A stretch of 64,000 nt of DNA, taken from Caulobacter sp. Root655. Lineage in GTDB: Bacteria; Pseudomonadota; Alphaproteobacteria; Caulobacterales; Caulobacteraceae. Positions 35,473-55,641 of this stretch are shown here, one piece after another (position 1 is the first letter of the stretch; each line of letters opens with the position of its first letter). A program made the translations under genes and the position numbers. Location of the stretch: the NCBI RefSeq assembly GCF_001427665.1, contig NZ_LMHC01000006.1, forward strand, positions 62,001 to 126,000. Reading direction: 5' to 3'. Under the pieces are notes generated by a model. It saw nothing but the letters and a program-made list of their open reading frames with translations, was not told the origin of the DNA and searched no databases.

Positions 35473-35558
35473 CCCGCGGGTCGCCGGCTCGCGCGGACCG
35501 CGATGGGGGCCACCGCGGGCGCGGCCGACAGGATCAGGAAGAGCGCAGCGCGTCGCAC
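35469..35558 (-). CDS. possible 29-aa leader-like peptide or remnant
   Basis: GTG at 35558 overlaps the last base of the sugar-porter stop codon (TAGTG) and follows GGAGGGG at a good distance. The product starts like a signal peptide (RRAALFLILSAAPAVAP) but stops after 29 residues, inside the 3' end of the convergent oxidoreductase gene. It may be the stub of a gene lost from the end of the operon. Evidence is thin. Confidence 0.25.
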   Translation of the reverse strand: MRRAALFLILSAAPAVAPIAVRASRRPAG

Positions 35559-36925
35559 TAGTGGCCCCTCCGGAAATCCATGTCCTCGAGGGCGATGCCG
35601 TTGGTCTCGGGCATCACCTTCCAGACCCACAGGAACTGCAGCAGCATCATCGCGCCGAAGAAGGCGAACACCCATCCGCCGACATGGGCGGCGAAGACCG
35701 GGAACGCCCAGGTGATCGCCGCCGCCATCACCCAGTGGGTGGTGCTGCCCAGCGCCTGGCCCTTGCCCCGCACGGCGCTGGGGAAGACCTCGGAGATGAA
35801 CACCCAGATGACCGCGCCCTGCGAGATGGCGAAGGCGGCGATGAAGCCCAGCAGCCCGGCCAGGACCAGGGCGCCGTTGGGATGAGCGCTCTCCAGTTGC
35901 AGGCCCACCAGGATCAGGGCGACGGCGGTGGCCACCGACCCGAAGTAGAGCAGGGGTTTGCGGCCGTAACGGTCGATCAGGAAGAAGGCCAGCAGGGTGA
36001 AGATCAGGTTGGTGCCGCCCACCGCGACCGACTGCAGCAGGGCGCTGTCGACGCCGGCCCCGCCCAGTTCGAAGATGCGCGGGGCGTAGTAGAGCAGCGG
36101 GTTGATGCCCGACAGCTGGTTGAACATGGCGATGGCGATGGCGCAGGTCACCGGCACCGAATAGGCCGATTGGAAGAGGCTGGGCTTGGCGGCCGCGACG
36201 TCGCGCTCGGCGGCGACGCGCATGTGCGCCACCTCGGCGTCGGGGTCGCGGAAGCCGAGCCGGGCCATCACGCCCCTCGCCTCGCCGTCACGTCCGTTGA
36301 CGACCAGCCAGCGCGGGCTGTCGGGCAACAGGAAGGTGACCACCAGGAACAGGATCGACGGAACCGCCACGATGCCGAACATCCAGCGCCAGGCGGTGTC
36401 GGCCGGCGCGAGGCTGGAGATGACGTAGTTGGAGAGGAAGGCCAGCAGGATGCCCAGCACGATGTTGAGCTGGTTCAGCGCCACCAGCCGTCCGCGCACA
36501 TGGGTGGGCGCGACCTCGGCGATGTAGATCGGGGTGACGACCGAGGCCGCCCCGATCGCCAGCCCGCCCAGGAAGCGGAACGACACCAGGGCGTACCAGT
36601 CGAGGGCCAGGCCCGTCCCCAGCGAGGACACGACGTAGCAGATCGCCACGGCCAGCAGCATGGGCTTGCGCCCGAAGCGGTCCGAGGGCCAGCCGGCGAC
36701 GAGCGAGCCGATCACCGTGCCGATCAGCGCCGAGGCGACCGTGAAGCCCAGCGCCCCCTCGCTCAGGGCGAAGCGGTCCTGCAGCGCCGAGGTCGTGCCG
36801 GAGATCACGGCGGTGTCGAAGCCGAAGAGCAGCCCGCCGAGGGCCGCGCCGGCGGCGCTGAGGATCATCGCCAGGGTGACTCCCGATCTCGTGGGTGGCG
36901 GGGCCGCGGTCTGTGTCGTCGTCAT
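35558..36925 (-). CDS. sugar porter (MFS, XylE/GalP-like proton symporter)
   Basis: 455 aa, 12 membrane helices. Sugar-porter signatures are complete: GFDTAVISGT in helix 1, WPSDRFGRKP between helices 2 and 3, RFLGGLAIGAAS in helix 4, PDSPRWL before the central loop, QLSGINPLLYYAPRIF in helix 7 and the second DRYGRKP. It imports a hexose such as fructose or glucose. It starts 3 bases after the ROK kinase gene, so uptake and phosphorylation are co-expressed. Confidence 0.93.
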   Translation of the reverse strand: MTTTQTAAPPPTRSGVTLAMILSAAGAALGGLLFGFDTAVISGTTSALQDRFALSEGALGFTVASALIGTVIGSLVAGWPSDRFGRKPMLLAVAICYVVSSLGTGLALDWYALVSFRFLGGLAIGAASVVTPIYIAEVAPTHVRGRLVALNQLNIVLGILLAFLSNYVISSLAPADTAWRWMFGIVAVPSILFLVVTFLLPDSPRWLVVNGRDGEARGVMARLGFRDPDAEVAHMRVAAERDVAAAKPSLFQSAYSVPVTCAIAIAMFNQLSGINPLLYYAPRIFELGGAGVDSALLQSVAVGGTNLIFTLLAFFLIDRYGRKPLLYFGSVATAVALILVGLQLESAHPNGALVLAGLLGFIAAFAISQGAVIWVFISEVFPSAVRGKGQALGSTTHWVMAAAITWAFPVFAAHVGGWVFAFFGAMMLLQFLWVWKVMPETNGIALEDMDFRRGH

Positions 36926-36928
36926 GGG

Positions 36929-37897
36929 TCAGGAGACCTTCGCGAGGGTGGAGACGGAGCTCTGTTGCGCGCCGATCGCCCAGTGCATGGGCCATTGGCG
37001 CGTGATCGTGCGGTGGGCGATGGCCAGGGCGCCGGTCAGGCCCGCCGAGGCGCCGGCGGTCGGTGCGGCGACGTAAACGCTCATGTCGAGGTCCCGGACG
37101 CTGGCGTCGTAGTCGGCCAGCTTGTCGGTCAGGGCGCGGCGGACCTGTTCGTACATGTTGGCCTGCTGCATGACCCCGCCGCCGATGATGATCCGGTCGG
37201 GGCGGACGATGTAGGTCAGGGTGGCGCAAAGGCCGGCGATGTAGTCGGCCTCGATGGCCCAGGCGGGATGATGGGCGGGAAGCTCTTCGGCCGGCGCGCC
37301 CCATCGGGCCAGCATGGCCGGTCCGCAGGCCAGGCCCTCCAGGCAGTCGCCATGGAACGGGCAAATGCCTTCGAAGGCCTGGTCGCCGACGGCGCGCGGC
37401 AGGCGGATATGGCCGGCCTCGGGATGGTTGGCGCCACCGTGCGGCACGCCGCCGATCAGCAGGCCGACCCCGATGCCGGTGCCGATCGTCACATAGCAGA
37501 AGGTGTCGAGCCCCCGGCCGCCGCCGAACAACAGCTCGCCCACGGCCGCGCAGTTAACGTCGGTGTCCAGCGCCATCGGAACGTCCAGCCGCCGCCGGAA
37601 GTGGCCCAGGAGGTCGATGTCGCTCCAGCCGGCCTTGGGCGTCGAGGTGATCGAACCGTAGTTGGCCGAGGTCTGGCGCAGGGACAGCGGGCCGAAGCTG
37701 CCGATCGCCAGGGCCGACAGCGGGCCATGGGCGGTCGCCGCCCGGTCGAAGAAGGCGCTGGCCGCCCCCAGGGTCTCGTCGGGCGTGGTGGTGGGGATGC
37801 GCACCTGGTCGAGGATCACGCCATCCTCGTTGGCCACCCCGCACAGGAACTTCGTCCCGCCGGCCTCGACGCCGCCCAACAACATGCGATCTGACAT
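36929..37897 (-). CDS. ROK-family fructokinase
   Basis: 322 aa from ATG 37897. N-terminal phosphate motif GGVEAGGTKFLCGV; catalytic Asp in MALDTDVNCAA; the ROK zinc site H..CPFHGDCLEG (residues about 176-192); a second phosphate motif IGTGIGVGL. The substrate-binding pattern matches the YdhR/Mak-like fructokinase group. It phosphorylates fructose (or mannose) entering through the adjacent porter. First gene of the two-gene unit, with an inverted repeat 270 bases upstream. Confidence 0.9.
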   Translation of the reverse strand: MSDRMLLGGVEAGGTKFLCGVANEDGVILDQVRIPTTTPDETLGAASAFFDRAATAHGPLSALAIGSFGPLSLRQTSANYGSITSTPKAGWSDIDLLGHFRRRLDVPMALDTDVNCAAVGELLFGGGRGLDTFCYVTIGTGIGVGLLIGGVPHGGANHPEAGHIRLPRAVGDQAFEGICPFHGDCLEGLACGPAMLARWGAPAEELPAHHPAWAIEADYIAGLCATLTYIVRPDRIIIGGGVMQQANMYEQVRRALTDKLADYDASVRDLDMSVYVAAPTAGASAGLTGALAIAHRTITRQWPMHWAIGAQQSSVSTLAKVS

Positions 37898-37986
37898 GGT
37901 TTCAATACTCGTGGATGGCGGCTTACTGGCCGGTTTGACGGAGGCGCCCGGCCGGGCAGGCGCCGTCGCGCGCCCGGACCGGGAGG

Positions 37987-38100
37987 CTAGAACCTGTGGG
38001 TGAGGCTGGCGAGATGGCCGTGTCCGGCTTGCGCCGGAGGAGCGAACGCGCGCCCCGCGGCCAGGGACACGGACGTGCGGCGGCAAGCTCTGAAGGTCAT
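37987..38100 (-). pseudogene. probable deletion remnant of a TonB-dependent receptor
   Basis: A 37-codon frame with a very good ribosome-binding site (GTGAGGAAAC, ATG at 38100). The start is signal-peptide-like (RTSVSLAAGRAFAPPAQA) and the last residues, HLASLTHRF, resemble the closing beta-strand of an outer-membrane receptor ending in Phe. Fusion of a TonB receptor's two ends by an internal deletion would explain this. Its place between a ROK regulator and a sugar kinase/porter unit is where such a receptor would be expected. Interpretation is speculative. Confidence 0.35.
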
Positions 38101-38165
38101 TGTTTCCTCACGCGATGCGTCTTTCGAGACGCTATTCTTCCCGCCGGTCGGCGGCGTTATCCAAT

Positions 38166-38186
38166 TAAATCTAGTAAAGTGATTTA
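38166..38186. promoter_or_regulatory. AT-rich inverted repeat, candidate ROK operator
   Basis: TAAATC, nine bases, GATTTA within an AT-rich patch, between the ROK regulator stop and the kinase unit. ROK/NagC-type regulators bind AT-rich palindromes of this kind. It would control the remnant and the kinase-porter unit downstream. Confidence 0.5.
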
Positions 38187-38215
38187 GTCGAGTCAACGGC
38201 GAGGATGAAGCCCGC

Positions 38216-39349
38216 CTAGTCGTCGGCGCCTTTCAGGAGCGAGCCGAGGTTGGGGGTGTAGCTGGCATAGAGCGGCAGGAGCCCGGCCCCCACCGCCGGA
38301 GCGACTTCGCCGATCCGGCCGCGAAGCAGGCTGGGCGTGAAGAAGTCCCGCGGCGCGCTGGCGGCGATCTTCCCTTCGACCAGCTGGCCAAGGGCCTCCA
38401 GGGCGGCCTCGTCCAGGGCGCCGCTGAGCACCACCGCGTCGAGGTCCAAGAGGCTGTTGGCGCCGATGGTGACGAAGGCGATGGCCTCGGCGCAGTCCTC
38501 GAGCCAGGCCTGGCGGATCGCGGCGTCGTCGCCGGACCCCAGGCGCGCTTCCAGGCTGTAGAGCGACGCCCTGTGGAGCAGGAAGTCCCGGCCTCCGGGC
38601 GTCGCAACCGGCATCGAGGCCAGGGCCGCGGCGTTGCCATGGCGGCCCTGGTGGATCTGGCCGCCCAGCACCAGGCCGCCGCCGACGAAGGCGCCGATGT
38701 GGAAATAGAGGTAGTTCTCGATCCCCAGGCCGACGCCGCACAGGAGCTCGGCCAGCGCCGCGGCGTTGCCGTCGTTCTCGAAGAACACCGGACAGTCCAG
38801 CCCGGACCGGAAGGCCTCCTCGACATCGGCCCTCCCCCAGTCCTTGGCCTGGTCGGCCGAAACGCCGATCTCGTCGCGCCATTCGCCGATGAACCACGGC
38901 ATGGCGATGCCGACCCCCAGGAACGCCTCGCGCCGCTCCGGCGCCAGGGCGGCCAGCTGGACCCGGGCGAACCGCGCGATCTCGGCGATCACCGCCTCAG
39001 GCTGAGGGAACGTCACGTCATGGGTCTGGGTGGCCAGGACCACGCCGTCGAAGTTCAGCAGCACGCAGGTCAGGCGGTTGCGCCCGATCTCGACGCCGAT
39101 GGTGAAGCCGTTGTCGCCGTTGATCTTGTAGATCGTGGAGGGCTGGCCCATCCCGCCCGTGCGCCGCCCGGCCACGACCAGCAGGCCGTCGGCTTCCAGG
39201 CCTTCGACGATGCGGACGGCCGCCTGGGGCGACAGTCCGGTGATCTTGGCCAGGTCGGCCTTGGAGGCGCCGTCCAGTCGGCGGATCGTCGAGAGGACGA
39301 GGCGCTCGTTGTAGCGGCGAACGCCGTTGGAATTGCTGCCGCGCGCCAT
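38216..39349 (-). CDS. ROK-family transcriptional regulator
   Basis: 377 aa. An N-terminal winged helix-turn-helix (residues about 10-65, SKADLAKITGLSPQAAVRIV) precedes a ROK sugar-binding domain (FTIGVEIGRNRLTCVLLNF; FENDGNAAALAELL; FHIGAFVGGGLVLGG). It lacks the Cys cluster of active ROK kinases, as regulators often do. It probably represses the kinase and porter genes downstream until sugar is present. Confidence 0.92.
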   Translation of the reverse strand: MARGSNSNGVRRYNERLVLSTIRRLDGASKADLAKITGLSPQAAVRIVEGLEADGLLVVAGRRTGGMGQPSTIYKINGDNGFTIGVEIGRNRLTCVLLNFDGVVLATQTHDVTFPQPEAVIAEIARFARVQLAALAPERREAFLGVGIAMPWFIGEWRDEIGVSADQAKDWGRADVEEAFRSGLDCPVFFENDGNAAALAELLCGVGLGIENYLYFHIGAFVGGGLVLGGQIHQGRHGNAAALASMPVATPGGRDFLLHRASLYSLEARLGSGDDAAIRQAWLEDCAEAIAFVTIGANSLLDLDAVVLSGALDEAALEALGQLVEGKIAASAPRDFFTPSLLRGRIGEVAPAVGAGLLPLYASYTPNLGSLLKGADD

Positions 39350-39541: not shown

Positions 39542-40867
39542 CTAGCAGGCGATACGGTCGGCCGGCTTGGCCCCGCCGTCGGCCCGCGCTTCGCCCCGAT
39601 GCCGGTACTGCTCCAGGGAAGCGGCCTTCATCTGGATCGAGAAGCCGGGCGCCCGCGGCGGCATGTAGGCGGCGTCGCGGATGACGCAGGGCTCGACGAA
39701 GTGCTCGTGCAGGTGATCGACATATTCGATGACGCGGCCCTCGCGCGTTCCCGAGAAGCACAGGTAGTCGATCATCGACAGGTGCTGAACGTATTCGCAC
39801 AATCCCACCCCGCCGGCGTGCGGGCAAACCGGCAGGTCATACTTGGCCGCCATCAGCAGCACGGCCAGGACCTCATTGACCCCGCCCAGCCGGCAGGCGT
39901 CGATCTGCACCACGTCGATCGCGCCGTTCATGATGAACTGCTTGAACAGAATGCGGTTCTGGCACATCTCGCCGGTCGCGACCTTGACCTCGCCGATGCC
40001 GGCGCGGATGCGGGCGTGGCCGTAGACGTCGTCCGGGCTGGTCGGCTCCTCGATGAACCACGGCTTGGCGAAGGCCAGGGCGTTGACCCAGTCGATGGCC
40101 TCCTCGACGTCCCACACCTGGTTGGCGTCGATCATCAGGGTGCGGTCGGGGCCCAGCACCTCGCGCGCGATGCTGACGCGGCGGATGTCGTCGGCGCGGT
40201 TGGCGCCGACCTTGAGCTTGATGTGGCGGAAGCCGGCGTCGACGGCCTCCTGGGCCAGGCGCCGCAACTTGGCGTCGTCATAGCCCAGCCAGCCGGCCGA
40301 AGTGGTGTAGCAGGGGAAGCCCTCGGCCTCGAGGGTCTCGACCCGCCCGGCCTTGCCCTCGGCGCGGGCTTCCAGCAGCGCCAGCGCCTCGGCGGGCTTG
40401 ATGCAGTCGGTCAGGTAGCGGAAGTCGATGGCGCGGACCAGTTCGGCGGGCGACATGTCGGCCACCAGCCGCCAGACCGGCTTGCCCTCGGCGCGGGCCC
40501 ACAGGTCCCAGACCGCGTTGACGACCGCGCCGGTCGCCAGGTGCATGGCGCCCTTGTCGGGGCCGATCCAGCGCAACTGGCTGTCGCCGGTCAGGTGGCG
40601 CCAGAAGCGAGCCGGGTCCTGCTTCACCCAGTCCAGATCGATCCCGACCACCAGGTGGCGCATGGCCTCGATCGCCGCGATGCAGATCTCGTTGCCGCGA
40701 CCGATCGTGAAGGTCAGGCCGTGGCCTTCCAGCCCATCCTGATCGGTTTCCAGCACGACATAGGCCGCCGAATAGTCCGGATCGGGATTCATGGCGTCCG
40801 AGCCGTCCAACGCCTGGCTGGTGGGGAAACGCACGTCGGCCGTCCGCAGGCCAGTAATTCGAGCCAT
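39542..40867 (-). CDS. L-fuconate dehydratase
   Basis: 441 aa, enolase superfamily. It removes water from L-fuconate to give 2-keto-3-deoxy-L-fuconate. Active-site residues line up with the characterised Xanthomonas campestris enzyme one residue earlier: Lys217 and Lys219 (HIKLKV), Asp247 (MIDANQ), Glu273 (FIEEP), Glu300 (ATGE) and His350 (CPHAGG). Length is the same. It is monocistronic, about 6.5 kb from the other pathway enzymes, but shares their promoter element. It fills the one step missing from the fucP operon. Confidence 0.95.
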   Translation of the reverse strand: MARITGLRTADVRFPTSQALDGSDAMNPDPDYSAAYVVLETDQDGLEGHGLTFTIGRGNEICIAAIEAMRHLVVGIDLDWVKQDPARFWRHLTGDSQLRWIGPDKGAMHLATGAVVNAVWDLWARAEGKPVWRLVADMSPAELVRAIDFRYLTDCIKPAEALALLEARAEGKAGRVETLEAEGFPCYTTSAGWLGYDDAKLRRLAQEAVDAGFRHIKLKVGANRADDIRRVSIAREVLGPDRTLMIDANQVWDVEEAIDWVNALAFAKPWFIEEPTSPDDVYGHARIRAGIGEVKVATGEMCQNRILFKQFIMNGAIDVVQIDACRLGGVNEVLAVLLMAAKYDLPVCPHAGGVGLCEYVQHLSMIDYLCFSGTREGRVIEYVDHLHEHFVEPCVIRDAAYMPPRAPGFSIQMKAASLEQYRHRGEARADGGAKPADRIAC

Positions 40868-40971: not shown

Positions 40972-41014
40972 TTTCGTATGTGGAATATACGTTCGCATTT
41001 AAAATGCAGTCAAC
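40972..41014 (-). promoter_or_regulatory. promoter of L-fuconate dehydratase with operator palindrome in spacer
   Basis: On the minus strand: -35 TTGACT (41008-41013), 18-base spacer, -10 TATATT (40984-40989). The spacer holds GCATTT-T-AAATGC (40995-41007). The block, ending with CCACATACGAAA, is about 80 percent identical to 44208-44251 upstream of the TonB receptor. Expected transcript leader about 110 bases. Confidence 0.65.
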
Positions 41015-41140
41015 ACCCTAGCGAACGGCGAGCGCGGACCTGGACCGCGACGCCGATCACCCGGCGGCGCGTTTTCGGGGCTGAAATCAAAGACCAACCT
41101 CAAAAAAGGTAGCGATAACATCGTCGCGGATTGTTACGAC

Positions 41141-41156
41141 AAATGCAAGCGCATTT
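41141..41156. promoter_or_regulatory. palindrome AAATGC-N4-GCATTT
   Basis: A perfect 6-4-6 inverted repeat with a further TGCATT copy just after it, in an AT-rich patch 270 bases upstream of the dehydratase. Its arms repeat the GCATTT/AAATGC words of the promoter palindrome at 40995-41007, so it may be an auxiliary operator. The rest of 40868-41410 holds no gene. Confidence 0.4.
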
Positions 41157-41275
41157 GCATTCTACTTTTACCAATGAACCGCCGGTGTTTCATTGCCTCG
41201 CGGACACCTGACGCTCGGAGCGCGCCCTAGGAGCCGTGGACGGTAGGCGTTGAAGGTTGGTTTCGGCCGCGCCTT

Positions 41276-41377
41276 GCGTCCTTCGAGGCTTCGCTACGCT
41301 ACGCACCTCAGGATGAGGGAGGCAGCACAGACTTCCTCATCCTGAGGCGCCCTCCAAAGGAGGGCCTCGAAGGACGC
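41276..41377. repeat. palindromic intergenic repeat, family 2 copy 2
   Basis: GCGTCCTTCGAGGC (41276-41289) with its inverse at 41364-41377 and inner CTCAGGATGAG/CTCATCCTGAG pairs, as at 28619-28721. It lies just after the receptor stop codon. Confidence 0.85.
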
Positions 41378-41410
41378 AGGGCGCTTCAAGACCTCAGCCG
41401 CCCACAGCTC

Positions 41411-44179
41411 TTAGAACTTCGCGCGCACGCCGGCCGTGAACCTGCGGCCGACATTCTCGTAGCCGCGGCTGTAGCCGTAGGCGTTCTGGTCGATCCGGGC
41501 GCTGTCGGTCAGGTTCTGGCCGTCGACGGTCAGGCTGATGCTCTTGGTCAGGTCGTAGCTGGCCGAGAAGTCGACCTGCCCGTAGGACTGGCCATAGCTG
41601 CCGTCGCCGAAGGTCGAGGTCGTGCTGTTCACGAACTTGCTGCGGAAGTTGTAGGCGAGGCGAGCGCTGAGGCGGCCGTTCTCGTAGTAGCCGACCAGGT
41701 TGTAGCTGTATTTCGAAACGCCAGGCAGCGGCAGCGGCGGCCCGCCCTGCACCGTGGAAACGTCGTCGGCGTCGATGTAGGTGAAGTTGGCGATGACCCC
41801 GAAGTCGTCGAACGGCCCCGGCAGGAAGGTCAACGGGGCCTGGACACCCAGCTCCGCGCCCTTCAGCTTGCCGCCGGCCCCGTTGTCGGGCTGCGAGATC
41901 GTGAAGGTCCGCGGCACGATCGCCCCGGTCTCGGTCAGGGTGACGTTGATGTTCTCGACGCGGCTGGTCGAGACGACGAAATTCTGGACGTCCTTGTAGA
42001 ACAGCGCGGCGCTGACCAGGCCGCCCTGGCCGAAATAGTATTCCACCGACACGTCCAGCTGCTTGGCCCGGTACGGGTCGACATTGGGGTTGTTGATGGT
42101 GATGAAGCTGGTGTTGGCGTTCACCGTCGTCGACGGCGACAAGGTCGACATCGTCGGACGCGACATCACCTTGGCCACGGCGGCGCGCAGCACCAGGTCT
42201 TCCCGCAGGTTGTAGCGAAGGTTCAGGCTGGGCAGCCAGTCGTGGTAGGCGCGCTTGATCGACACCGGCGTGACGCTGGGCAGGGTGGTGGTCGAGGAAC
42301 CCAGCGAGAAGCGAATCTGCGTCAGGTCCGGGGCGTAGCCGGCCGAGTCCTGGTCGGTGTGCACGTAGCGGAGGCCGACATTGCCGGTCAGCCGGTCGTC
42401 GCTCGTCGCGAAATCGGCGCGCAGATAAGCCGAGGCCTCCTTCTCGCCCACCGCGTACTCATTGGCCAGGGCGCGGACCGTCGGCGCGACCTTCAGGATG
42501 GCGTCGAGCGGCGCCTTGGCGAACAGCAGCGCCGGGTCGGCCGACAGGAAGGTGCTCGGATATTTCACCGGGCCGTCATAGCTGTTGAAGAAGTGGTCGA
42601 ACGAATAGAGCCGCATCAGGCTGGAGGCGTCGAACGACGGGCCGTCGACCGAGGCGACGACCGGCAGGCCCAGCAGGCCGGCCAATTGCGCGGCGGTGAC
42701 CTTGATCTGGCTGGTGCCGAATTCCTGCTTGCGATCCGAATAGCGCGCGCCGGCCTTCACGCCCCGCAGGAAGCCCTGGCCGGTGTCGTAGGCCAGGTCG
42801 AGCTTGGTGTCCCAGTTGCGGTCGTCGATCGGCCGGCGATAGTCGCCCGACAGCCCGATGCCCTTGAAGTTGGCCGGGTTCAGCGGGTCATAGCCGCGGG
42901 TGAAGTTGAACTGCGGGAGGTTCTTCGGGTCCTGGCGGAAGTCGTAGGAGGCGCTGGCGCGCCCCAGCACCGTCGGCACGAAGCTGTCGAACAGCTGCTC
43001 GGCCTTCGAATAGGAGCCCTCGCCGTTCACCGTCAGGCGGCCGAAGTCCAGCTTGAAGCCGGTCCCTCCCGATTTGAGCGTGTTGTAGGTGTTGGAGACG
43101 GTGTTGGTGTTGCGATAGTCGACACCGTCGGCGTCGAGGTAGATGACCCGGCCGTTGGCGTCGAGCGCGCTGTCGCGGATGCACCCGCCCGGCGCCACGC
43201 CCTGCTGGGCGGTCGGGCAGATGATGCTGGTGAACCGCAGGGTGTTGATCGGCTGGCTGAGCTTGGTCTCGTACTTTGAATAGAGGAAGTCGCCATACAG
43301 CTCGATGCGGTCGGTCGGTCGCGCCTGGAACCCGCCGATCGCGGTCACGCGCTTCGAATTGCCCAGGATGATCCGGGTGCCGGCCTCGTGGTTGAAGCGC
43401 AGGCTGTCGGCGAAATCGCCGTCCCGGTTGTAGTCGAGCTTGGGCGTGCGGGTGTTCTCGACGCCGTTCTCGAAGCCGAAGCCGCGGAAGGTGTCGGACC
43501 GGAAGTCGCGGCGCTGGTAGTTGACGCCCAGGCTGACCCCGAACCGGTCGGAAAACAGGTGATTGACCAGCACGGCCACCTGCGGCTCGACCTTTTGCGA
43601 CTTCTGCTCGTACAGGCCTTCGGCGCTGATCGCGATGCGGTCGCGACCCAGGTCCAGCGGCCGGGCGGTGTTGATGTTGACCGTCGCGGCCAGGCCGCCG
43701 CTGAGCTGATCGGCCGAGGGGGTCTTGTAGACCTCGACCGAACTGACGAAGTCGGAGGCCAGGGTGGCGAATTCGAAGCTGCGACCGCCGCTCGGGGTGG
43801 TCAGCACGCGGCCGTTGTATAGGGTTTGGGTGAAATCCGGGCTCAGGCCGCGGACGCTGATCCGCGAGCCTTCGCCGTTGGTGCGGGTGATCTGCACGCC
43901 GGTGATGCGCTGCAGGGAGTCGGCCAGGTTCTGGTCGGGGAACTTGCCGATGTCCTCGGCCGAAATGACGTCGCTGATCACCGAGGCGGTGCGCTTGATG
44001 GTCGCGGCCTTGGCCAGGCTTTGGCGAAAGCCGGTGACGATGACCTCGTCGACCGTGCTGTCGGCGGCGGCGGGCGGCGGCGGGGCTTCGGCGGCTTGAG
44101 CATGGGCCAGGCCCGGAAGCAGGGCCATCAAGGCCAGCGCCGAGACCCCTCCGATGAGCGAACTCTTTTCCAACGTCAT
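41411..44179 (-). CDS. TonB-dependent receptor, probable fucosyl-oligosaccharide importer
   Basis: 922 aa from ATG 44179, chosen for GGGGGAGGAT just before it. Signal peptide (ALMALLPGLAHAQ), TonB box DEVIVTGFRQSL, plug domain with DIGKFPDQNLADSLQRI and ISVRGL, and a 22-strand barrel ending in RFTAGVRAKF. This is the long Caulobacter/Xanthomonas carbohydrate-receptor type (TIGR01782-like). Divergent from the alpha-fucosidase gene and carrying the fucose-locus promoter element, it probably imports fucosylated saccharides across the outer membrane. Confidence 0.93.
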   Translation of the reverse strand: MTLEKSSLIGGVSALALMALLPGLAHAQAAEAPPPPAAADSTVDEVIVTGFRQSLAKAATIKRTASVISDVISAEDIGKFPDQNLADSLQRITGVQITRTNGEGSRISVRGLSPDFTQTLYNGRVLTTPSGGRSFEFATLASDFVSSVEVYKTPSADQLSGGLAATVNINTARPLDLGRDRIAISAEGLYEQKSQKVEPQVAVLVNHLFSDRFGVSLGVNYQRRDFRSDTFRGFGFENGVENTRTPKLDYNRDGDFADSLRFNHEAGTRIILGNSKRVTAIGGFQARPTDRIELYGDFLYSKYETKLSQPINTLRFTSIICPTAQQGVAPGGCIRDSALDANGRVIYLDADGVDYRNTNTVSNTYNTLKSGGTGFKLDFGRLTVNGEGSYSKAEQLFDSFVPTVLGRASASYDFRQDPKNLPQFNFTRGYDPLNPANFKGIGLSGDYRRPIDDRNWDTKLDLAYDTGQGFLRGVKAGARYSDRKQEFGTSQIKVTAAQLAGLLGLPVVASVDGPSFDASSLMRLYSFDHFFNSYDGPVKYPSTFLSADPALLFAKAPLDAILKVAPTVRALANEYAVGEKEASAYLRADFATSDDRLTGNVGLRYVHTDQDSAGYAPDLTQIRFSLGSSTTTLPSVTPVSIKRAYHDWLPSLNLRYNLREDLVLRAAVAKVMSRPTMSTLSPSTTVNANTSFITINNPNVDPYRAKQLDVSVEYYFGQGGLVSAALFYKDVQNFVVSTSRVENINVTLTETGAIVPRTFTISQPDNGAGGKLKGAELGVQAPLTFLPGPFDDFGVIANFTYIDADDVSTVQGGPPLPLPGVSKYSYNLVGYYENGRLSARLAYNFRSKFVNSTTSTFGDGSYGQSYGQVDFSASYDLTKSISLTVDGQNLTDSARIDQNAYGYSRGYENVGRRFTAGVRAKF

Positions 44180-44207
44180 ATCCTCCCCCGTCAGCGCTTG
44201 CCGCGCA

Positions 44208-44251
44208 TTTTGCATGTGGATTTTATGTTCGTATTTAAAATACCTGTCAAC
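44208..44251 (-). promoter_or_regulatory. promoter of TonB receptor with operator palindrome in spacer
   Basis: On the minus strand: -35 TTGACA (44245-44250), 18-19 base spacer, -10 near TAAAAT (44220-44225). The spacer holds GTATTT-T-AAATAC (44231-44243). Flanking words GTTCG and CCACAT match the site at 40972-41014. Confidence 0.65.
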
Positions 44252-44276: not shown

Positions 44277-44321
44277 AATATGAAATGCAACTTGCACATA
44301 TAAACTCATATTGCCTATCTA
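44277..44321 (+). promoter_or_regulatory. promoter/operator region of the first alpha-fucosidase
   Basis: AATATGA (44277-44283) faces TCATATT (44306-44312). A possible promoter is TTGCAC (44292-44297), 18 bases, TATCTA (44316-44321). The words TATGAAAT and CATATAA also occur at 52480-52502. This lies 135 bases before the ATG. Confidence 0.4.
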
Positions 44322-44455: not shown

Positions 44456-46354
44456 ATGAAGAACCTTCGCATCGCGGCGCTAGCCCTGCTGGTCGCGCCC
44501 ACCCTCGCCCTCGCCCAGACGCCGGACCCGACCGCCGACCAGCGCCGAAGCGCAGAGGCCAACGAACCCACCGGGATCGGCGCGCCGGCCGCGCGCGACA
44601 GCCAGGCCCTGGCCCGCGCGCGGGACGGATGGTGGACCCAGGCCCAGCAGACCCGCGACCAGCGGCTGCAATGGTTCCGCGACGCCCGCTTCGGCGTCTT
44701 CGTGCACTGGGGCCCCTACTCGGTGCTCGGCGGTCAGTGGGAAGGCCGGCCCAATCCAGGCTATTCCGAGCACATCATGCGCGTGGCGCGCATCCCTCGC
44801 GAGACCTACAAGAACGAGGTCGCCGCCAAGTTCCGGCCCGACGCCTATGACGCCCGGGCCTGGGTCAAGCTGATGAAACAGGCCGGGGCCGGCTATGTCA
44901 TCCTGACCGCCAAGCACCATGACGGCTTCGCCCTGTGGCCGTCCGACGCCAGCGACTACAACATCGCCAAGGTGTCGGGCTTCCAGCGCGCCCCCCTGGC
45001 CGAACTGGTCGCGGCGGCGCGGGCCGAGGGCCTGAAGGTCGGCTTCTACTATTCGCACGCCTTCGACTGGGAAGACCCCGACGCCCCCGGCAATGACTGG
45101 GACTACGCCAATCCCGGCGGCGACAAGAAGCTGCACGGCGTCGACTGGTGGAACAACGACCCGAAGTTCCTGGTCAACACCCAGCGCTATGTCGACCACA
45201 AGGTCGTCCCGCAGCTGACCGAGCTGATCACCCGCTACCACCCCGACATCCTGTGGTTCGACACGCCCGGCAAGCTGCCGTTCTTCCAGCAGGCCCAGGT
45301 GGTCGAGGCGGTTCGCCGGATCGATCCGAACGTCGTCATCAACGGCCGGGCGGCGCGCACCGCCGAGGCCAATCTCGGCGACTTCCTCGACACTTCCGAC
45401 CGGCCGGCCGAACTGCGCCCCACGCCGGGCGACTGGGAAGCCATTCCCACGACCAACGAGTCCTACGGCTACAACGCCCTCGACCACAGCCATAAAAGCG
45501 TCGCGCACTTCGTGCGGCTGATCGCCAAGGCGGCGGCCAAGGGCGGCAACATCCTGCTCAACATCGGTCCCAAGGGCGACGGGACGATCGACGCGCCCGA
45601 CGCGGCGATCCTGCAGGGCGTCGGCCGCTGGATGGCCGTCAACGGCGACAGCATCCACGGCTCGACGCGCACGCCGCTGGACCGCCAGGCCTGGGGCGAC
45701 AGCACGATCAAGGGCGACCAGCTCTATCTGCACGTCTTCGACTGGCCCAAGGGCGGAACCCTGCGGCTGGGCGGCCTGCTGAGCCCGCCCAAGAGCGCCT
45801 GGCTGATGGCGAACAAGACGCCGGTGACGTTCCGCCGCGTCGGCGCCGGCGACTACGAGTTCAGCCTGCCCAAACAGGCGCCCGACGCCGCCGACAGCGT
45901 CATCGTCGTCAAGACCGACGGTCCGGTGCGGGGAGAGGCCGGACGCCTGATCGAGACCCGCTGGGGCGACAACCAGCTTCTGGCCTTCGACGCCCAGGCT
46001 CGCGGCGCGGGCTTCACCTATGGCGACGGCAAGACCGCGCGGTTCTATGTCGACGGGTTGGAACGGGCCGGAAACAGCCTGGCCTGGCCGGTCCGGGCCA
46101 CGCAGGGCGCCCCGGTCAAGGCCAGCCTGCGCTACAGCACGCCGGGCCCGGTGGGTCCGAACGCCCGCTTCGTCCTGCGCTACGGCGCCGCGACCCTGTC
46201 CGCGCCGATCACCGCGACGGCCTCGCCGACGGACCTGCGGCGCCTGGATCTGGGCGCGCTGCCGCTGCGGGCCGGAGACCTGGCCGACCTGACTCTGGCC
46301 ATCGAAGGCGGCGATGCGCCGGTCCATGTTTTCGATTTGCAACTGGAGCGATGA
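44456..46354 (+). CDS. alpha-L-fucosidase, GH29 (copy 1)
   Basis: 632 aa with a Sec signal peptide (LALLVAPTLALAQ). GH29 barrel at residues about 65-400: WFRDARFGVFVHWGPYS, TAKHHDGFALWPS, GFYYSHAFDW, and the predicted nucleophile Asp269 in ILWFDTPG. A C-terminal beta-sandwich of about 200 residues follows. It releases terminal L-fucose from glycans in the periplasm or outside. It is followed by the iclR gene with an ATGA overlap, so enzyme and regulator are coupled. Confidence 0.93.
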   Translation: MKNLRIAALALLVAPTLALAQTPDPTADQRRSAEANEPTGIGAPAARDSQALARARDGWWTQAQQTRDQRLQWFRDARFGVFVHWGPYSVLGGQWEGRPNPGYSEHIMRVARIPRETYKNEVAAKFRPDAYDARAWVKLMKQAGAGYVILTAKHHDGFALWPSDASDYNIAKVSGFQRAPLAELVAAARAEGLKVGFYYSHAFDWEDPDAPGNDWDYANPGGDKKLHGVDWWNNDPKFLVNTQRYVDHKVVPQLTELITRYHPDILWFDTPGKLPFFQQAQVVEAVRRIDPNVVINGRAARTAEANLGDFLDTSDRPAELRPTPGDWEAIPTTNESYGYNALDHSHKSVAHFVRLIAKAAAKGGNILLNIGPKGDGTIDAPDAAILQGVGRWMAVNGDSIHGSTRTPLDRQAWGDSTIKGDQLYLHVFDWPKGGTLRLGGLLSPPKSAWLMANKTPVTFRRVGAGDYEFSLPKQAPDAADSVIVVKTDGPVRGEAGRLIETRWGDNQLLAFDAQARGAGFTYGDGKTARFYVDGLERAGNSLAWPVRATQGAPVKASLRYSTPGPVGPNARFVLRYGAATLSAPITATASPTDLRRLDLGALPLRAGDLADLTLAIEGGDAPVHVFDLQLER

Positions 46355-47214
46355 TGAAGGTCCCTTCCGTTCGCCCCCACCCATCGGCTATCCCTTTGTC
46401 CATGACACGGGAGAAGCCGGTGGCGGGCGCATTGAGCAAGGCCGGGATCGACGGCGACGACGAGCAGCGCTATCGGGCGCCGGCCCTCGAAAAGGGCCTG
46501 GACATCCTGGAGCTGATCTCGCGAGCGTCCGAGCCCATGTCGATCGGGATGATCACCCAGGCGCTGGGCCGCTCGACCGGCGAGCTGTTCCGGATGATCC
46601 AGGTGCTGGAATATCGCGGCTTCATCGAACAGAGCGGCGCCGGCTATGTGCCTACGGCGCGCCTGTTCGCGCTGGGCATGGAGCAGGCCCCGGTCAAGTC
46701 GATCCTGGAGGTGGCCCTGCCGGTCATGCGCAAGCTGGCCGAGGAGGCCGAACAGAGCTGCCACCTGGCGCTGCGGGCCGACGGCGACATCGTCGTCGCC
46801 GCGCGGATGGAGTCGGCCGGGCTGATCGGCTTCTCGGTGCGCATCGGCTATCGCCAGCCCCTGGTGCTGACCGGCTCGGGCACGGTGCTCTACGCGTTCC
46901 AGTCGCCGGCCACCCGGGCGCGCTGGGAGGCCGCGTTCGACCCGAACCTGCCGGCTGACAAGCTGGCGGCCTTCCGGGCCCGCGCCGATCGCGTCCAGGC
47001 CAACGGCTATGACGAGCATCCCAGCGACGTCGTGCCCGGCATCGTCGACCTGGCCGCGCCGGTCCTGCGCGGCGAGGTCGCGGCCGCCGCCCTGACCATG
47101 CCCTTCGTGCGCAAGGTGCCGCTCAATGTCGAGCAGGGCCACGCCCTGCAGATGGTGCGCGAGGCCGCGCGCGAGATCTCGTCCGAACTGGCCTCGAGCG
47201 ACGTGCGGGTCTGA
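46351..47214 (+). CDS. IclR-family transcriptional regulator of the fucose locus
   Basis: 287 aa from ATG 46351 overlapping the fucosidase stop; ATG 46402 is an alternative. Winged helix-turn-helix at residues about 45-105 (SIGMITQALGRSTGELFRMI) and an IclR effector domain (ESAGLIGFSVRIGYRQPLVLTGSGTVLYA, cited in part: VRIGYRQPLVLTGSG). As the only regulator inside the locus it is the best candidate to bind the palindromes in the fucose promoters. Effector is probably fucose or a pathway intermediate (inference). Confidence 0.9.
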   Translation: MMKVPSVRPHPSAIPLSMTREKPVAGALSKAGIDGDDEQRYRAPALEKGLDILELISRASEPMSIGMITQALGRSTGELFRMIQVLEYRGFIEQSGAGYVPTARLFALGMEQAPVKSILEVALPVMRKLAEEAEQSCHLALRADGDIVVAARMESAGLIGFSVRIGYRQPLVLTGSGTVLYAFQSPATRARWEAAFDPNLPADKLAAFRARADRVQANGYDEHPSDVVPGIVDLAAPVLRGEVAAAALTMPFVRKVPLNVEQGHALQMVREAAREISSELASSDVRV

Positions 47215-50806: not shown

Positions 50807-51147
50807 GCGTCGCGCTCCTGTTCGTCGAGCGCGAAGATGCGGGCCATCGGCGTCCATTTTGGGCCGTCGTCGCGGATCGGCTTCTGGAAGGCGTCCATTT
50901 CCTGTTCCCAGGCTTCGACCCGCGCCCGCAACCCGGGATCGGCGGGGCGCGGGAAATCGTCCTCGACCTCGGCGATCATCACCAGGCGGTCCTCGATCCG
51001 CCAGATCTCCATCGACCGATAGCCGCGCTGGCGAATGTCGCGGACCACCTCGGACCAGACCGCGCCAGGCGCGTGGCGGGCCTCGTAGGCGGCGATCAGC
51101 CCCGCGTCCGCGACCAGGTCCAGGGCGTGGACCAGCCGCCGGCTCAC
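50803..51147 (-). CDS. L-fucose mutarotase (RhaM/COG3254 family)
   Basis: 114 aa from GTG 51147, overlapping the fucP stop (GTGA). One ferredoxin-like domain: HALDLVADAGLIAAYEARH at the start, SMEIWRIEDRLVMIAEVEDD in the middle, and a final W-rich KWTPMARIFALDE, the family's conserved end. It interconverts alpha and beta anomers of fucose to feed the anomer-specific dehydrogenase. Confidence 0.9.
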   Translation of the reverse strand: MSRRLVHALDLVADAGLIAAYEARHAPGAVWSEVVRDIRQRGYRSMEIWRIEDRLVMIAEVEDDFPRPADPGLRARVEAWEQEMDAFQKPIRDDGPKWTPMARIFALDEQERDA

Positions 51148-52424
51148 GGGCGCTTCTCGCGAAGGACGAGGATGGCGAAGCCCAGCACCACGGCGAAGCA
51201 CAGCATCGGAATGGCCATCATGTGGTGGATTCCGCCGATGCGGTCGGAGACCAGCCCCATGGCCGGCGGGATCAGGGCGCCGCCGATGATCGACATGATC
51301 AGGAACGACGAGCCGTTCTCGGTTTCCTCGCCCAGGTCCTCGACCCCCAGGGCGAAGATGGTCGGGAACATGATCGACATGAAGAAGCTGGTCAGCCACA
51401 GCGCCGCCACCGCGACCTCGCCGCTCAGGGTCGCCGCCGCCCCGCAGAGCACCACATTGGCGACGGCATAGATCGCCAGCAGCCGGGCCGGCGCGACCCG
51501 GCGTTGCAGGAAGGCGCCGCTGAACCGGCCAACCATCAGCATGGCCAGGCTGCCCGACAGCAGGAAGGCGACACTTCGTTCACCCAGCTGGGGCGCCTGG
51601 CTCTTGGCGAAGTCGATGAAGAAGCTCCAGACCCCGACCTGCGCGCCGACATAGAAGAACTGCGTCACGACGGCCCGAACCAGGCGCTGGTGACGCAGGA
51701 CCGCCCAGAACGAGCGGACCTCGGTCCGCTCCGCCAAGAGCCGTTCGATGCGCGGGAACCTGGTTCGCGCGATCAGCACCGCCAGCAGACAGACCGCGAT
51801 CCCGATCGCCACATAGGGCCCCTGGACCGTGGCGGCCTCGCTGGTCCGCCAGGCCGCGCGCTCGGCGGCGGTCATGGCCGACAGGGCGGCGGGGCTGTGC
51901 TCGACGCCGGAGAGCACGAAGAGACCACCGATCACCGGCCCCAGGATCGCGCCGACGCCGTAGAAGGACTGGGCCAGGTTCAGGCGGGCCGACGCGGTCT
52001 CCTTGGCGCCGAGGATCGAGACATAGGGGTTGGACGCTGTCTCGAGGAAACCCAGGCCGATGGCGATCACGTACAGGGCCGTCAGGAACACGCCGAAGCG
52101 CTGGACCTCCGCGGCCGGGTAGAACAGGAACGCACCGGCGGCGTAGCAGCCGAGCCCGAACAGGATCGTGGCCTTGTAGCCGTAGCGCCGGATCAACAGG
52201 CCGGCCGGGATCGCCGCGCAGAAGTAGCCGAGATAGAACGCCGTCTGGATCAGGCTCGACTGCGTGCGGGTCAGGTCCAACGCCTTCTGGAACTGGCGGA
52301 TCAGGACGTCGTTCAGCGCCGCCGCCAGGGCCCATGAAAAGAACAGTGTCGTGACCAGCGCGAACGCGACGGCATAGCGGCGCTCCACGATCGGTGGCGG
52401 CGCGGCCGCGACATCGGTCGGCAT
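51144..52424 (-). CDS. fucP: L-fucose:proton symporter FucP
   Basis: 426 aa from ATG 52424 with GGAGGG upstream. Twelve membrane helices of the FHS family: FFSWALAAALNDVLIRQFQ in helix 1, GLGFLETASNPYV in helix 4 (ETxxNPY signature), QFFYVGAQVGVWSFFIDF in helix 7. It takes L-fucose from the periplasm with a proton. First gene of the operon fucP-mutarotase-dehydrogenase-lactonase-SDR-hydrolase. Confidence 0.93.
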   Translation of the reverse strand: MPTDVAAAPPPIVERRYAVAFALVTTLFFSWALAAALNDVLIRQFQKALDLTRTQSSLIQTAFYLGYFCAAIPAGLLIRRYGYKATILFGLGCYAAGAFLFYPAAEVQRFGVFLTALYVIAIGLGFLETASNPYVSILGAKETASARLNLAQSFYGVGAILGPVIGGLFVLSGVEHSPAALSAMTAAERAAWRTSEAATVQGPYVAIGIAVCLLAVLIARTRFPRIERLLAERTEVRSFWAVLRHQRLVRAVVTQFFYVGAQVGVWSFFIDFAKSQAPQLGERSVAFLLSGSLAMLMVGRFSGAFLQRRVAPARLLAIYAVANVVLCGAAATLSGEVAVAALWLTSFFMSIMFPTIFALGVEDLGEETENGSSFLIMSIIGGALIPPAMGLVSDRIGGIHHMMAIPMLCFAVVLGFAILVLREKRP

Positions 52425-52472: not shown

Positions 52473-52511
52473 CTGACAAATATGAAATACAGGTTCATAT
52501 AAGAAATGCAA
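52473..52511. promoter_or_regulatory. divergent fucP/lldD promoters with shared operator
   Basis: ATATGAA, seven bases, TTCATAT (52480-52500) is a perfect inverted repeat. Toward lldD: CTGACA (52473-52478), 17 bases, CATATA (52496-52501). Toward fucP on the minus strand: TTGCAT (52506-52511), 16 bases, TATTTC (52484-52489). The repeat lies in both spacers, so one bound protein could block both promoters. Confidence 0.6.
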
Positions 52512-52533: not shown

Positions 52534-53670
52534 ATGATCGCCACCTCGACCGAGGACTTCAGGCAGGCCGCCAAACGGCGGCTGCCGCGCTTCCTGTTCG
52601 ACTATATCGACGGCGGGGCCGGCGACGAGAGCACCCTGCGCCGGAACGTGGATGACCTGTCCACCTTGGCGGTTCGACAGCGGGTTCTCAAGGACGTTGG
52701 TGGCGTCGATCTGACGACGTCGCTGTTCGGGCAATCCCTGGCGGCGCCCATCGTGCTGGGGCCCGTGGGCCTGAGCGGCATGTACGCCCGGCGCGGCGAG
52801 GCCCAGGCCGCCTGCGTCGCCGCCGAACGTGGTTTGCCATTCTGCCTGTCGACCGTTTCGGTTTGCGGGCTGGAAGAAGTGGCGGCCGCCTCGGCCGCGC
52901 CGATCTGGTTCCAGCTCTATGTGATCCGCGACCGCGGCTTCATGCGCGACCTGATCGCCCGGGCGAAGCAGGCGGGCGCCAGCGCCATGGTCTTCACGGT
53001 CGACATGCCGGTTCCGGGCGCGCGGCGGCGCGACGCCCACAGCGGACTCTCCGGCCCCCACGCGGCGTGGCGCCGCTATCTGCAGGTCGCCGGCAAGCCC
53101 GCCTGGGCCTGGGACGTGGGCCTTCACGGTCGCCCTCATCAGCTGGGCAACATCGCGCCGGTCCTGGGCCAGGCCAGCGGCCTCGAGGATTTCATGGGCT
53201 GGCTGGGGGCCAATTTCGACCCCACCGTCCAGTGGCGGGACCTGGAATGGATCCGCGAAGCCTGGGACGGCCCGCTGATCATCAAGGGGATCCTCGATCC
53301 GGACGACGCCCGCGACGCGGTCCGCCTGGGCGCCGACGGGCTGGTGGTGTCCAACCACGGCGGACGCCAGCTGGACGGCGCCCCGTCCACCGCCCGCGCC
53401 CTGCCCAGCATCGCCGAGGCGGTGGGCGACAAGCTGACCGTCCTGGCGGATTCCGGCGTCCGCTCGGGACTGGACGTGGTGCGGATGCTGGCGCTGGGCG
53501 CCAAGGGCGTGCTGCTGGGCCGCGCCTGGGTCTATGCGTTGGCGGCCGCCGGCGGCGGGGGCGTTGGCCAGTTGCTCGACATGATGACGGCCGAGATGCG
53601 CACCACCCTGGCCCTGGCCGGCGTCACGACCATCGCCGACATCGATCGCGGCCTGCTCGACCTCCGATAA
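52534..53670 (+). CDS. lldD: L-lactate dehydrogenase (FMN, quinone-linked)
   Basis: 378 aa, FMN-dependent alpha-hydroxyacid oxidase family: [52 protein letters not shown], catalytic His in [11 protein letters not shown], and [20 protein letters not shown]. It oxidises L-lactate to pyruvate, passing electrons to the respiratory chain at the inner membrane. L-lactate is the second product of the fucose pathway encoded here, which explains its place opposite fucP. Confidence 0.93.
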
Positions 53671-55608: not shown

Positions 55609-55641
55609 TTTCATATGTGGCATGGCATTTCTTATGTGAAA
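55609..55641. promoter_or_regulatory. operator-like inverted repeat upstream of second alpha-fucosidase
   Basis: TTTCATAT (55609-55616) faces ATGTGAAA (55634-55641). TTTCATATGTGG differs by one base from TTTCGTATGTGG at 40972-40983, and the core GCATTTCTTATGTGAA resembles the fucP/lldD site read on the other strand. It lies 27 bases before the ATG. Confidence 0.5.

Follow-up and report, generated by a model that had tools for sequence, protein, structure and literature searches.

A predicted tandem operator for an IclR-family regulator at the promoters of an L-fucose locus in Caulobacter sp. Root655

A 64-kb stretch of the Caulobacter sp. Root655 genome (contig NZ_LMHC01000006.1, positions 62,001 to 126,000 of the forward strand, hereafter the window) carries genes for L-fucose use, among them an enolase-superfamily dehydratase and a TonB-dependent receptor whose promoter regions share a block of sequence (40972-41014 and 44208-44251, both on the minus strand). 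Sequence comparison indicates that this block is very probably a tandem operator, to be bound by the IclR-family product of the gene at 46351-47214. The likeness between the two blocks is that of a -35 hexamer followed by two predicted tandem operators, and the same operator pair is also present at two further promoters of the locus.

The proposed composite operator would consist of two 14-bp palindromes (about TTTCANATNYGAAA) in tandem, with centres 19 bp apart and the upstream copy the stronger. At the dehydratase and the receptor, copy 1 would fill the spacer behind the TTGAC -35 hexamer and copy 2 would start at the -10 end. Because the pair recurs at the divergent fucP/lldD region and at a second GH29 fucosidase gene (GH29b), one regulator would be placed over the uptake, release and catabolism of L-fucose. 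Two IclR dimers, acting as a tetramer, would sit side by side on the pair, and from the position of the sites the bound protein would exclude RNA polymerase and so repress, with release by fucose or, more likely, by a pathway intermediate. Repression by occlusion is the simplest reading of the arrangement.

The two blocks were located where an earlier note on this DNA had placed them, and its count of about 35 of 43 shared bases was reproduced by global alignment (35 identities between blocks of 43 and 44 bases, a single one-base gap being introduced). Local alignment of the two upstream regions gave a best score of 26, compared with 10.7 +/- 1.4 and a largest value of 20 in 500 Markov resamplings. 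A search for the 13-base palindrome GYATTTTAAATRC, on which that note was centred, allowing two mismatches returned the two blocks and nothing more in the window, where 0.21 matches would be expected; a search of the entire genome (5,211,878 bases) with at most one mismatch likewise returned just these two. A longer word, ATTTTAAATRCGAACRTA, was confined to the blocks even when three mismatches were tolerated. The blocks had also been described as the same promoter, which held in part. The dehydratase has a good sigma70-like match, TTGACT-18-TATATT (40984-41013, minus strand; 10 of 12 positions, with 0.1 such matches expected in shuffles). At the receptor, a TTGACA -35-like hexamer (44245-44250, minus strand) is followed by 19 bases and TAAAAT, outside the rule of the sigma70 scan, which allowed 16-18 nt between -35 and -10 and called no pair at the receptor, fucP or GH29b; the TTGAC of this hexamer is kept in the sister genome G188 and in Caulobacter Root343 and BIN4.

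The suggestion that the arms of the 13-base palindrome had changed in concert did not survive the comparison with relatives. The counterparts in G188 are GTATTTCAAATGC at the dehydratase and CAATTTTAAATAC at the receptor, with the outer pairs broken, and both outer arm pairs hold in three of 12 homologous sites; the outer arms were accordingly set aside as evidence of selection. The receptor counterparts in Root343 and BIN4 are ACATTTCAAATGT and TTCTTTCAAATAT, respectively. A motif search (TTGAC, ATTTYAAAT and GAA) over 75 genomes of the genus gave five matches in three genomes, all in the fucose locus; these matches and the alignments show that the outer arms are not kept. The constant part of the related sites is TTTY..AT, and GAA or AAA comes next in most of them.

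Other intergenic regions of the locus contain related words: TTTCACATAAGAAA precedes GH29b, and GTTCATATAAGAAA stands in the fucP/lldD interval. Root343 has counterparts of them, and a single 14-bp palindrome accommodates them all. In place of the 13-bp G(C/T)ATTTTAAAT(G/A)C, the common feature would be this 14-bp palindrome, TTTYANATNYGAAM, with its centre shifted by 3.5 bases. The word GAAC, previously treated as separate, falls inside the shifted palindrome, and CCACAT, previously treated as part of the promoter, appears to belong to a second, weaker operator 19 bp nearer the gene. The 13-base frame is fully paired in three of 12 composites, namely both window sites and the Root343 receptor, whereas six sites of other promoters pair at 2-3 of 6 positions in that frame and at 5-6 of 7 in the shifted one. 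Averaged over the 12 rows, the paired fractions of the two frames are near equal (0.61 and 0.63), and the shifted frame was chosen because it is the one that the other promoters and the distant loci and relatives fit. On this comparison the 13-base palindrome is perfect at the two sites for which it was named, yet it is not the common feature.

A symmetric matrix was built from ten sites and run over the window. The eight best sites were all in intergenic regions of the fucose locus; five were training sites, and the three outside training were at 40972, 44292 and 55609. Pairs 19 bp apart were found at 40972/40991, 44208/44227, 52474/52493 and 55609/55628. With a matrix made from first copies only, in which neither the second copies nor the distant loci described below were used, 10 of 12 strong sites of four loci had a partner scoring above 8 at offset 19, and none of the 12 had one at any other offset between 10 and 44. 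This peak at a single offset is the reason for reading the shared CCACAT as a second operator. Across the four fucose loci, 12 pairs were counted at offset 19 and at most one at any other offset from 10 to 40. The 12 composites, from four genomes, align ungapped over 41 columns, and operator 1 has TTT[CT] and a central AT in all 12, with GAA or AAA next in 11. The lone 14-mer pattern was rejected as a genome-wide predictor, with 187 matches at up to two mismatches against 79 for the backward control; as this was too loose, a profile of the pair was used instead.

The predicted operators of the four window pairs all lie on the minus strand, and the position weight matrix (PWM) scores of their first copies are those of training sites. 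At the dehydratase, operator 1 (TTTTAAATGCGAAC, 40991-41004, PWM 18.3) fills the spacer of TTGACT-18-TATATT, and operator 2 (TTCCACATACGAAA, 40972-40985, PWM 16.2-16.3, outside the training of the matrices) lies 19 bp downstream, contains CCACAT and overlaps the last two bases of the -10. At the receptor, operator 1 (TTTTAAATACGAAC, 44227-44240, PWM 20.8) is followed 19 bp away by operator 2 (ATCCACATGCAAAA, 44208-44221, PWM 10.0), which is found at the same offset in G188, Root343 and BIN4. The fucP/lldD region has operator 1 (TTTCTTATATGAAC, 52493-52506, PWM 24.6) and, 19 bp from it, operator 2 (TTTCATATTTGTCA, 52474-52487, PWM 15.6 with a matrix leaving the site out). At GH29b, operator 1 (TTTCACATAAGAAA, 55628-55641, PWM 24.1) holds the sole exact TTTCANATNNGAAA of the genome, and operator 2 (TGCCACATATGAAA, 55609-55622, PWM 13.2) again lies 19 bp from it. 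The operator centres stand 130.5 and 111.5 bases before the start at the dehydratase, 57.5 and 38.5 at the receptor, 52.5 and 33.5 at GH29b and, with the start codon read from the sequence, about 75.5 and 56.5 at fucP. A possible weak single operator is located on the side of the first fucosidase gene (GH29a) and iclR (TTGCACATATAAAC, 44292-44305, plus strand, PWM 16.4); the counterpart in G188 scores 15.5 and that in Root343 only 7.9, and the best BIN4 site reaches 13.8.

To assess the specificity of the pair, a sequence-only profile was trained on the 12 composites and the 5.2-Mb genome of Root655 was searched at E up to 10. The four window pairs were recovered with E of 3.2e-7 (dehydratase), 6.0e-7 (receptor), 1.6e-5 (fucP/lldD) and 8.0e-5 (GH29b), and at this threshold nothing was matched outside them, two extra matches (E 0.96 and 4.2) being the opposite strand of two window pairs. 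Since the four matches were training rows, the informative part of this search is the empty rest of the genome. The 75 Caulobacter genomes were scanned at E 0.01, with stricter filters that lose weak matches, and four matched: Root655 itself, G188, Root343 (G194; its locus pieces are L017, L102 and L103) and G215, the sites of which are by sequence those of BIN4 (L016). All matches were in the fucose locus or a related second locus, and most were training rows or near-copies of them. One weak match on contig 215 of G188 (E 0.0085) was neither, and sits between the start of a second dehydratase, read by eye, and a second iclR 82% identical to that of the window, so that the fucose switch may have been duplicated in G188. 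On that contig (L214, 1-1851) the second iclR comes with a TTGAC-plus-pair block of its own, ahead of the apparent dehydratase start, and the gene end beyond resembles by eye a GH95-like gene of Root343.

G188, Root343 and BIN4 all encode the IclR protein, at 83-97% identity to that of the window. Root343 has a fifth pair (L102 3905-3937), which precedes a gene for a protein that resembles, by its N-terminal motif, a GH95 fucosidase. Upstream of the Root343 GH29b (L102 6432-6488), overlapping profile matches were observed on both strands, resembling three operators at 19-bp steps.

The distribution of the pair beside IclR homologues points to the protein that would bind it. An IclR match at E 1e-40 or better was found in 54 of 398 genomes of the order, own genome included, and 20 distant IclR neighbourhoods (IclR 39-53% identical) were picked by hand from the 53 others before any counting. 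Fucose-type neighbours, defined as at least three of fucP, lactonase, AKR, SDR, FAH and mutarotase, were present in 13 of the 20, the remainder being six g3 loci and L152. These 20 loci gave 17 pairs at offset 19, distributed over 13 of them, and at most six at any other offset from 10 to 40. Among 200 symmetric permutations of the matrix, the mean was 0.8 pairs at offset 19 and the largest six (nine for the best of five offsets), and none of the permuted matrices was as good as the real one. Twelve of the 17 distant pairs lie just upstream of a fucose-type gene or iclR, and two more precede a receptor or an SDR gene. No pair at offset 19, or at any offset, was found in 16 control pieces around relatives of the dehydratase without this IclR. 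The helix-turn-helix (HTH) region around RS.SELFRMIQVLE is largely conserved over 16 aligned IclR proteins. Pairs at 19 bp thus point to the IclR protein at 46351-47214 as the likely binder, and together with the relatives they support the earlier view of a conserved regulator site over the promoter with IclR as its probable binder.

Several observations weigh against this interpretation. The first-copy scores and the four profile matches in the own genome are high by construction, through training, and the second copies score poorly at a number of promoters, their PWM values running from 6.3 to 18.7 across the 12 pairs. Taken alone, the two window sites pair 6/6 in the 13-base frame and 3/7 in the shifted one. 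The GH29a-iclR promoter side has only the weak single site, and no good dehydratase pair was found in Root343 or BIN4; in both genomes the receptor gene ends some 215-220 bases ahead of the dehydratase gene, whose transcription may start at the receptor promoter. Seven of the 20 distant IclR loci were without a pair at the thresholds used, three of the 17 distant pairs are near no identified gene, and the pair profile matched five of the 20 loci at E up to 1, two of them below 0.01. Genomes of the genus that have a distant IclR and fucose-type genes, such as G064, G082, G091 and G106, gave no profile match at E 0.01. The 16 control pieces, which come from eight genomes and partly overlap, were empty at every offset and are unmatched in composition, so that more weight falls on the offset profile and the permutations as controls.

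The Caulobacter site, as judged from its sequence, is of the published IclR tandem-operator kind, the one difference found being a centre one base shorter. Mutarotases make up COG3254, one of the gene groups that enter this comparison. As described by Suvorova and Gelfand (2021; PMC8222616) for 94 orthologous groups, tandem IclR sites have 18-22 nt between centres, mainly 19-21, and the group 1 palindromes have TTYCR...YGRAA half-sites; COG3254 and COG3618 are frequently associated with the sugar and sugar-acid regulogs, and a title in the reference list of that paper gives COG3618 as a fuconolactonase. The Caulobacter sites share with that group the TTYC...GRAA half-sites, the spacing of 19 and a location near the regulator gene, with iclR in all four loci and pairs in 13 of the 20 distant ones. 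They differ from the RYW3-4RY pattern of group 1 in having six bases between C and G, compared with 7-8 in the four sub-groups given in PMC8222616, and the 6-base spacing is also seen in the best palindromes beside distant IclR genes, for example TTTCATTTGTGAAA. The sites in that survey lie mostly 20-80 nt before the start codon; the dehydratase pair is further out, at about 112 and 131 nt.

Among individual regulators, the nearest in function is FucR of Campylobacter jejuni (Cj0480c), described in PMC12566272 as an IclR-type repressor whose mutant is derepressed and which binds its promoter in a gel shift that fucose did not reverse, leaving an intermediate as the possible ligand. Both are IclR-type regulators with an L-fucose gene set, a likeness by description, and unlike the regulator proposed here the C. 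jejuni protein controls one operon according to the same paper. KdgR, of pectin and oligogalacturonate use, belongs to the same family, and its structures 5y6i and 1ysp were among the PDB matches. The window protein, however, scored 58.9 bits with the NCBIfam KdgR model, well below the cut-off of 275, and the KdgR motif published in PMC8222616, RWWGAAACGNCGTTTCAKKA, has its half-sites in the opposite order. The tetramer of TtgV, an IclR-family protein seen on its operator in a crystal structure, is cited in PMC8222616 as evidence for tetramer binding by IclR proteins. The TtgV structure 2xrn was a PDB match of the window protein (E 1.4e-5). TtgV controls efflux genes, unlike the fucose genes considered here. 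One strain relevant to fucose regulation, HL-49, is labelled 'A. marincola', the genus being Aliidiomarina. Fucose/fuconate loci with predicted FucR sites are reported in PMC5507952 for bacteria with an oxidative L-fucose pathway, the organisms covered there being Halomonas, the Aliidiomarina-like HL-49 and a Rhodobacteraceae bin, not Caulobacter. Among the papers listed by our literature search none dealt with an IclR fucose operator in Caulobacter, although the regulog may be listed in the supplementary tables of PMC8222616.

The alternative that fares best accepts that IclR binds the pairs and departs from repression in the last, inferred step only, with the bound protein activating. Activation as well as repression is ascribed to members of the family in PMC12566272, and three of the four promoters have no called sigma70 pair. 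At the dehydratase, however, the two copies are placed between the -35 and the start region, a position in which bound protein should obstruct the polymerase, and the nearest tested IclR fucose regulator, that of PMC12566272, is a repressor; activation is therefore considered unlikely. Somewhat less probable still is that the 13-base palindrome is the operator proper, or a third box adding a register at the receptor and dehydratase. Every pair forms in its frame at both window sites and at the receptor of Root343, with outer arms of GC/GC, GT/AC and AC/GT, and PMC8222616 predicts three-box IclR sites in 32 orthologous groups; weighing on the other side are the poor pairing of this frame at the six sites of other promoters and its outer pairs, which are broken in G188 at both sites and in BIN4.

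We give slightly less credence again to a scheme in which the composite is read as four alternating half-sites about 9.5 bp apart, which IclR would pair to form either two group-1 palindromes or a single inner one of group 2, switching register with inducer. The extra 13-base palindrome at the receptor and dehydratase would, as part of the same scheme and with the same low probability, provide a further register over the -35. If true, such switching would be a way to grade output among the promoters of one regulon.

The ROK regulator encoded at 38216-39349, which had been named as an alternative binder, is improbable in that role. Its gene is the neighbour of the dehydratase gene and runs in the same direction, the protein combines a MarR-like HTH with a ROK domain, and G188 has a 98% identical copy. 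Yet the regulator was not in the fetched Root343 and BIN4 loci (for BIN4, only the fetched locus was covered), its best match in Root343 is 34% identical, and both keep the sites; moreover, the composite profile has no match near the ROK regulator or its kinase, and in other genera the pairs stand beside IclR homologues. Equally improbable is an explanation without any regulator, in which the likeness is just that of two AT-rich promoters of the sigma70 type or comes from a recent duplication. For all the 35 identical bases and the common TTGAC of these two neighbouring promoters, operator pairs are also present at fucP and GH29b, where the scan called no sigma70 promoter, and the exact 19-bp pairing recurs beside IclR genes of other genera.

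The IclR-type tandem operator remains the preferred reading, and the genes it would serve were characterized by domain search. The locus comprises the enolase-superfamily dehydratase, the TonB receptor, two GH29 fucosidases and the IclR regulator, with the FucP permease and LldD both above their NCBIfam cut-offs, and further FAH-, SDR-, AKR-, lactonase- and mutarotase-like genes. The proposed binder (46351-47214, plus strand) has HTH_IclR and IclR_C domains (PF09339, 43.3 bits, cut-off 22; PF01614, 57.6 bits, cut-off 24), which place it in the IclR family. Its start may be a later ATG near 46402 instead of 46351, the BIN4 match beginning at the later methionine. The dehydratase (39542-40867, minus strand; MR_MLE domains) matches several NCBIfam dehydratase models, and as none passes its cut-off the name L-fuconate dehydratase is taken from context. 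The receptor (41411-44176, minus strand; Plug and beta-barrel) has its closest relatives in Caulobacter BIN4 (89% identical) and Root343 (87%). GH29a (44456-46354, plus strand; PF01120) is an alpha-L-fucosidase gene whose 3' end overlaps the iclR reading frame. The L-fucose permease gene fucP (51144-52424, minus strand; TIGR00885, 383.4 bits, cut-off 280.4; start codon read from the sequence) heads a run of mutarotase-, AKR-, lactonase-, SDR- and FAH-like genes. Divergent from it is the possible target lldD, for an L-lactate dehydrogenase (52534-53670, plus strand; NF033901, 598.8 bits, cut-off 550), and the second alpha-L-fucosidase gene, GH29b, follows at 53759-55582 (minus strand; PF01120). 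The FAH protein scored 412.5 bits with the 2,4-didehydro-3-deoxy-L-rhamnonate hydrolase model (cut-off 500), and the mutarotase-like protein was matched by no NCBIfam model. An MFS sugar transporter, a ROK kinase and the ROK regulator (35558-39349) look like a separate sugar operon flanking the locus, and no counterpart of this group was detected in the loci fetched from Root343 and BIN4.

Other elements were observed near these promoters. Between the dehydratase and the receptor, at 41335-41376, there is a repetitive extragenic palindromic (REP)-like inverted repeat (CCTCATCCTGAGG ... GGCCTCGAAGGACG), a pattern with 99 matches in the genome (46 and 53 by strand), which may have moved in recently because the region is not alignable in G188. 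The palindrome TGCAAATGCGCTTGCA at 41144-41159 is present once in the genome and unchanged in G188, and part of it was called terminator-like on the plus strand; the similar CAAATATGCTTGC precedes the dehydratase in Root343 and BIN4, and a different regulator may have its operator here. TGCAA..TTGCA elements near the two promoters could be read as LacI-like; this reading was set aside, the exact element being present once in the genome. The Root343 intergenic region between receptor and GH29a (L017 5700-5900) carries GGTAGCGCTACC, which resembles the xylose operator of Caulobacter. A record titled Bacillus subtilis SK7B5 (L031) contains a TonB receptor 32% identical to that of the window, and an outer-membrane receptor in a Bacillus suggests a contaminated assembly.

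These results propose a regulator, an operator and a small regulon, covering L-fucose uptake, release and breakdown, for an uncharacterized Caulobacter locus, and the genome-wide specificity of the predicted pair would make it a clean test case. The palindrome that first drew attention was in another frame than the common one, and it was comparison that moved the centre by 3.5 bases and exposed the second copy. The half-site spacing, one base below that of the four sub-groups described in the literature, would slightly extend the recognition code of the IclR family.

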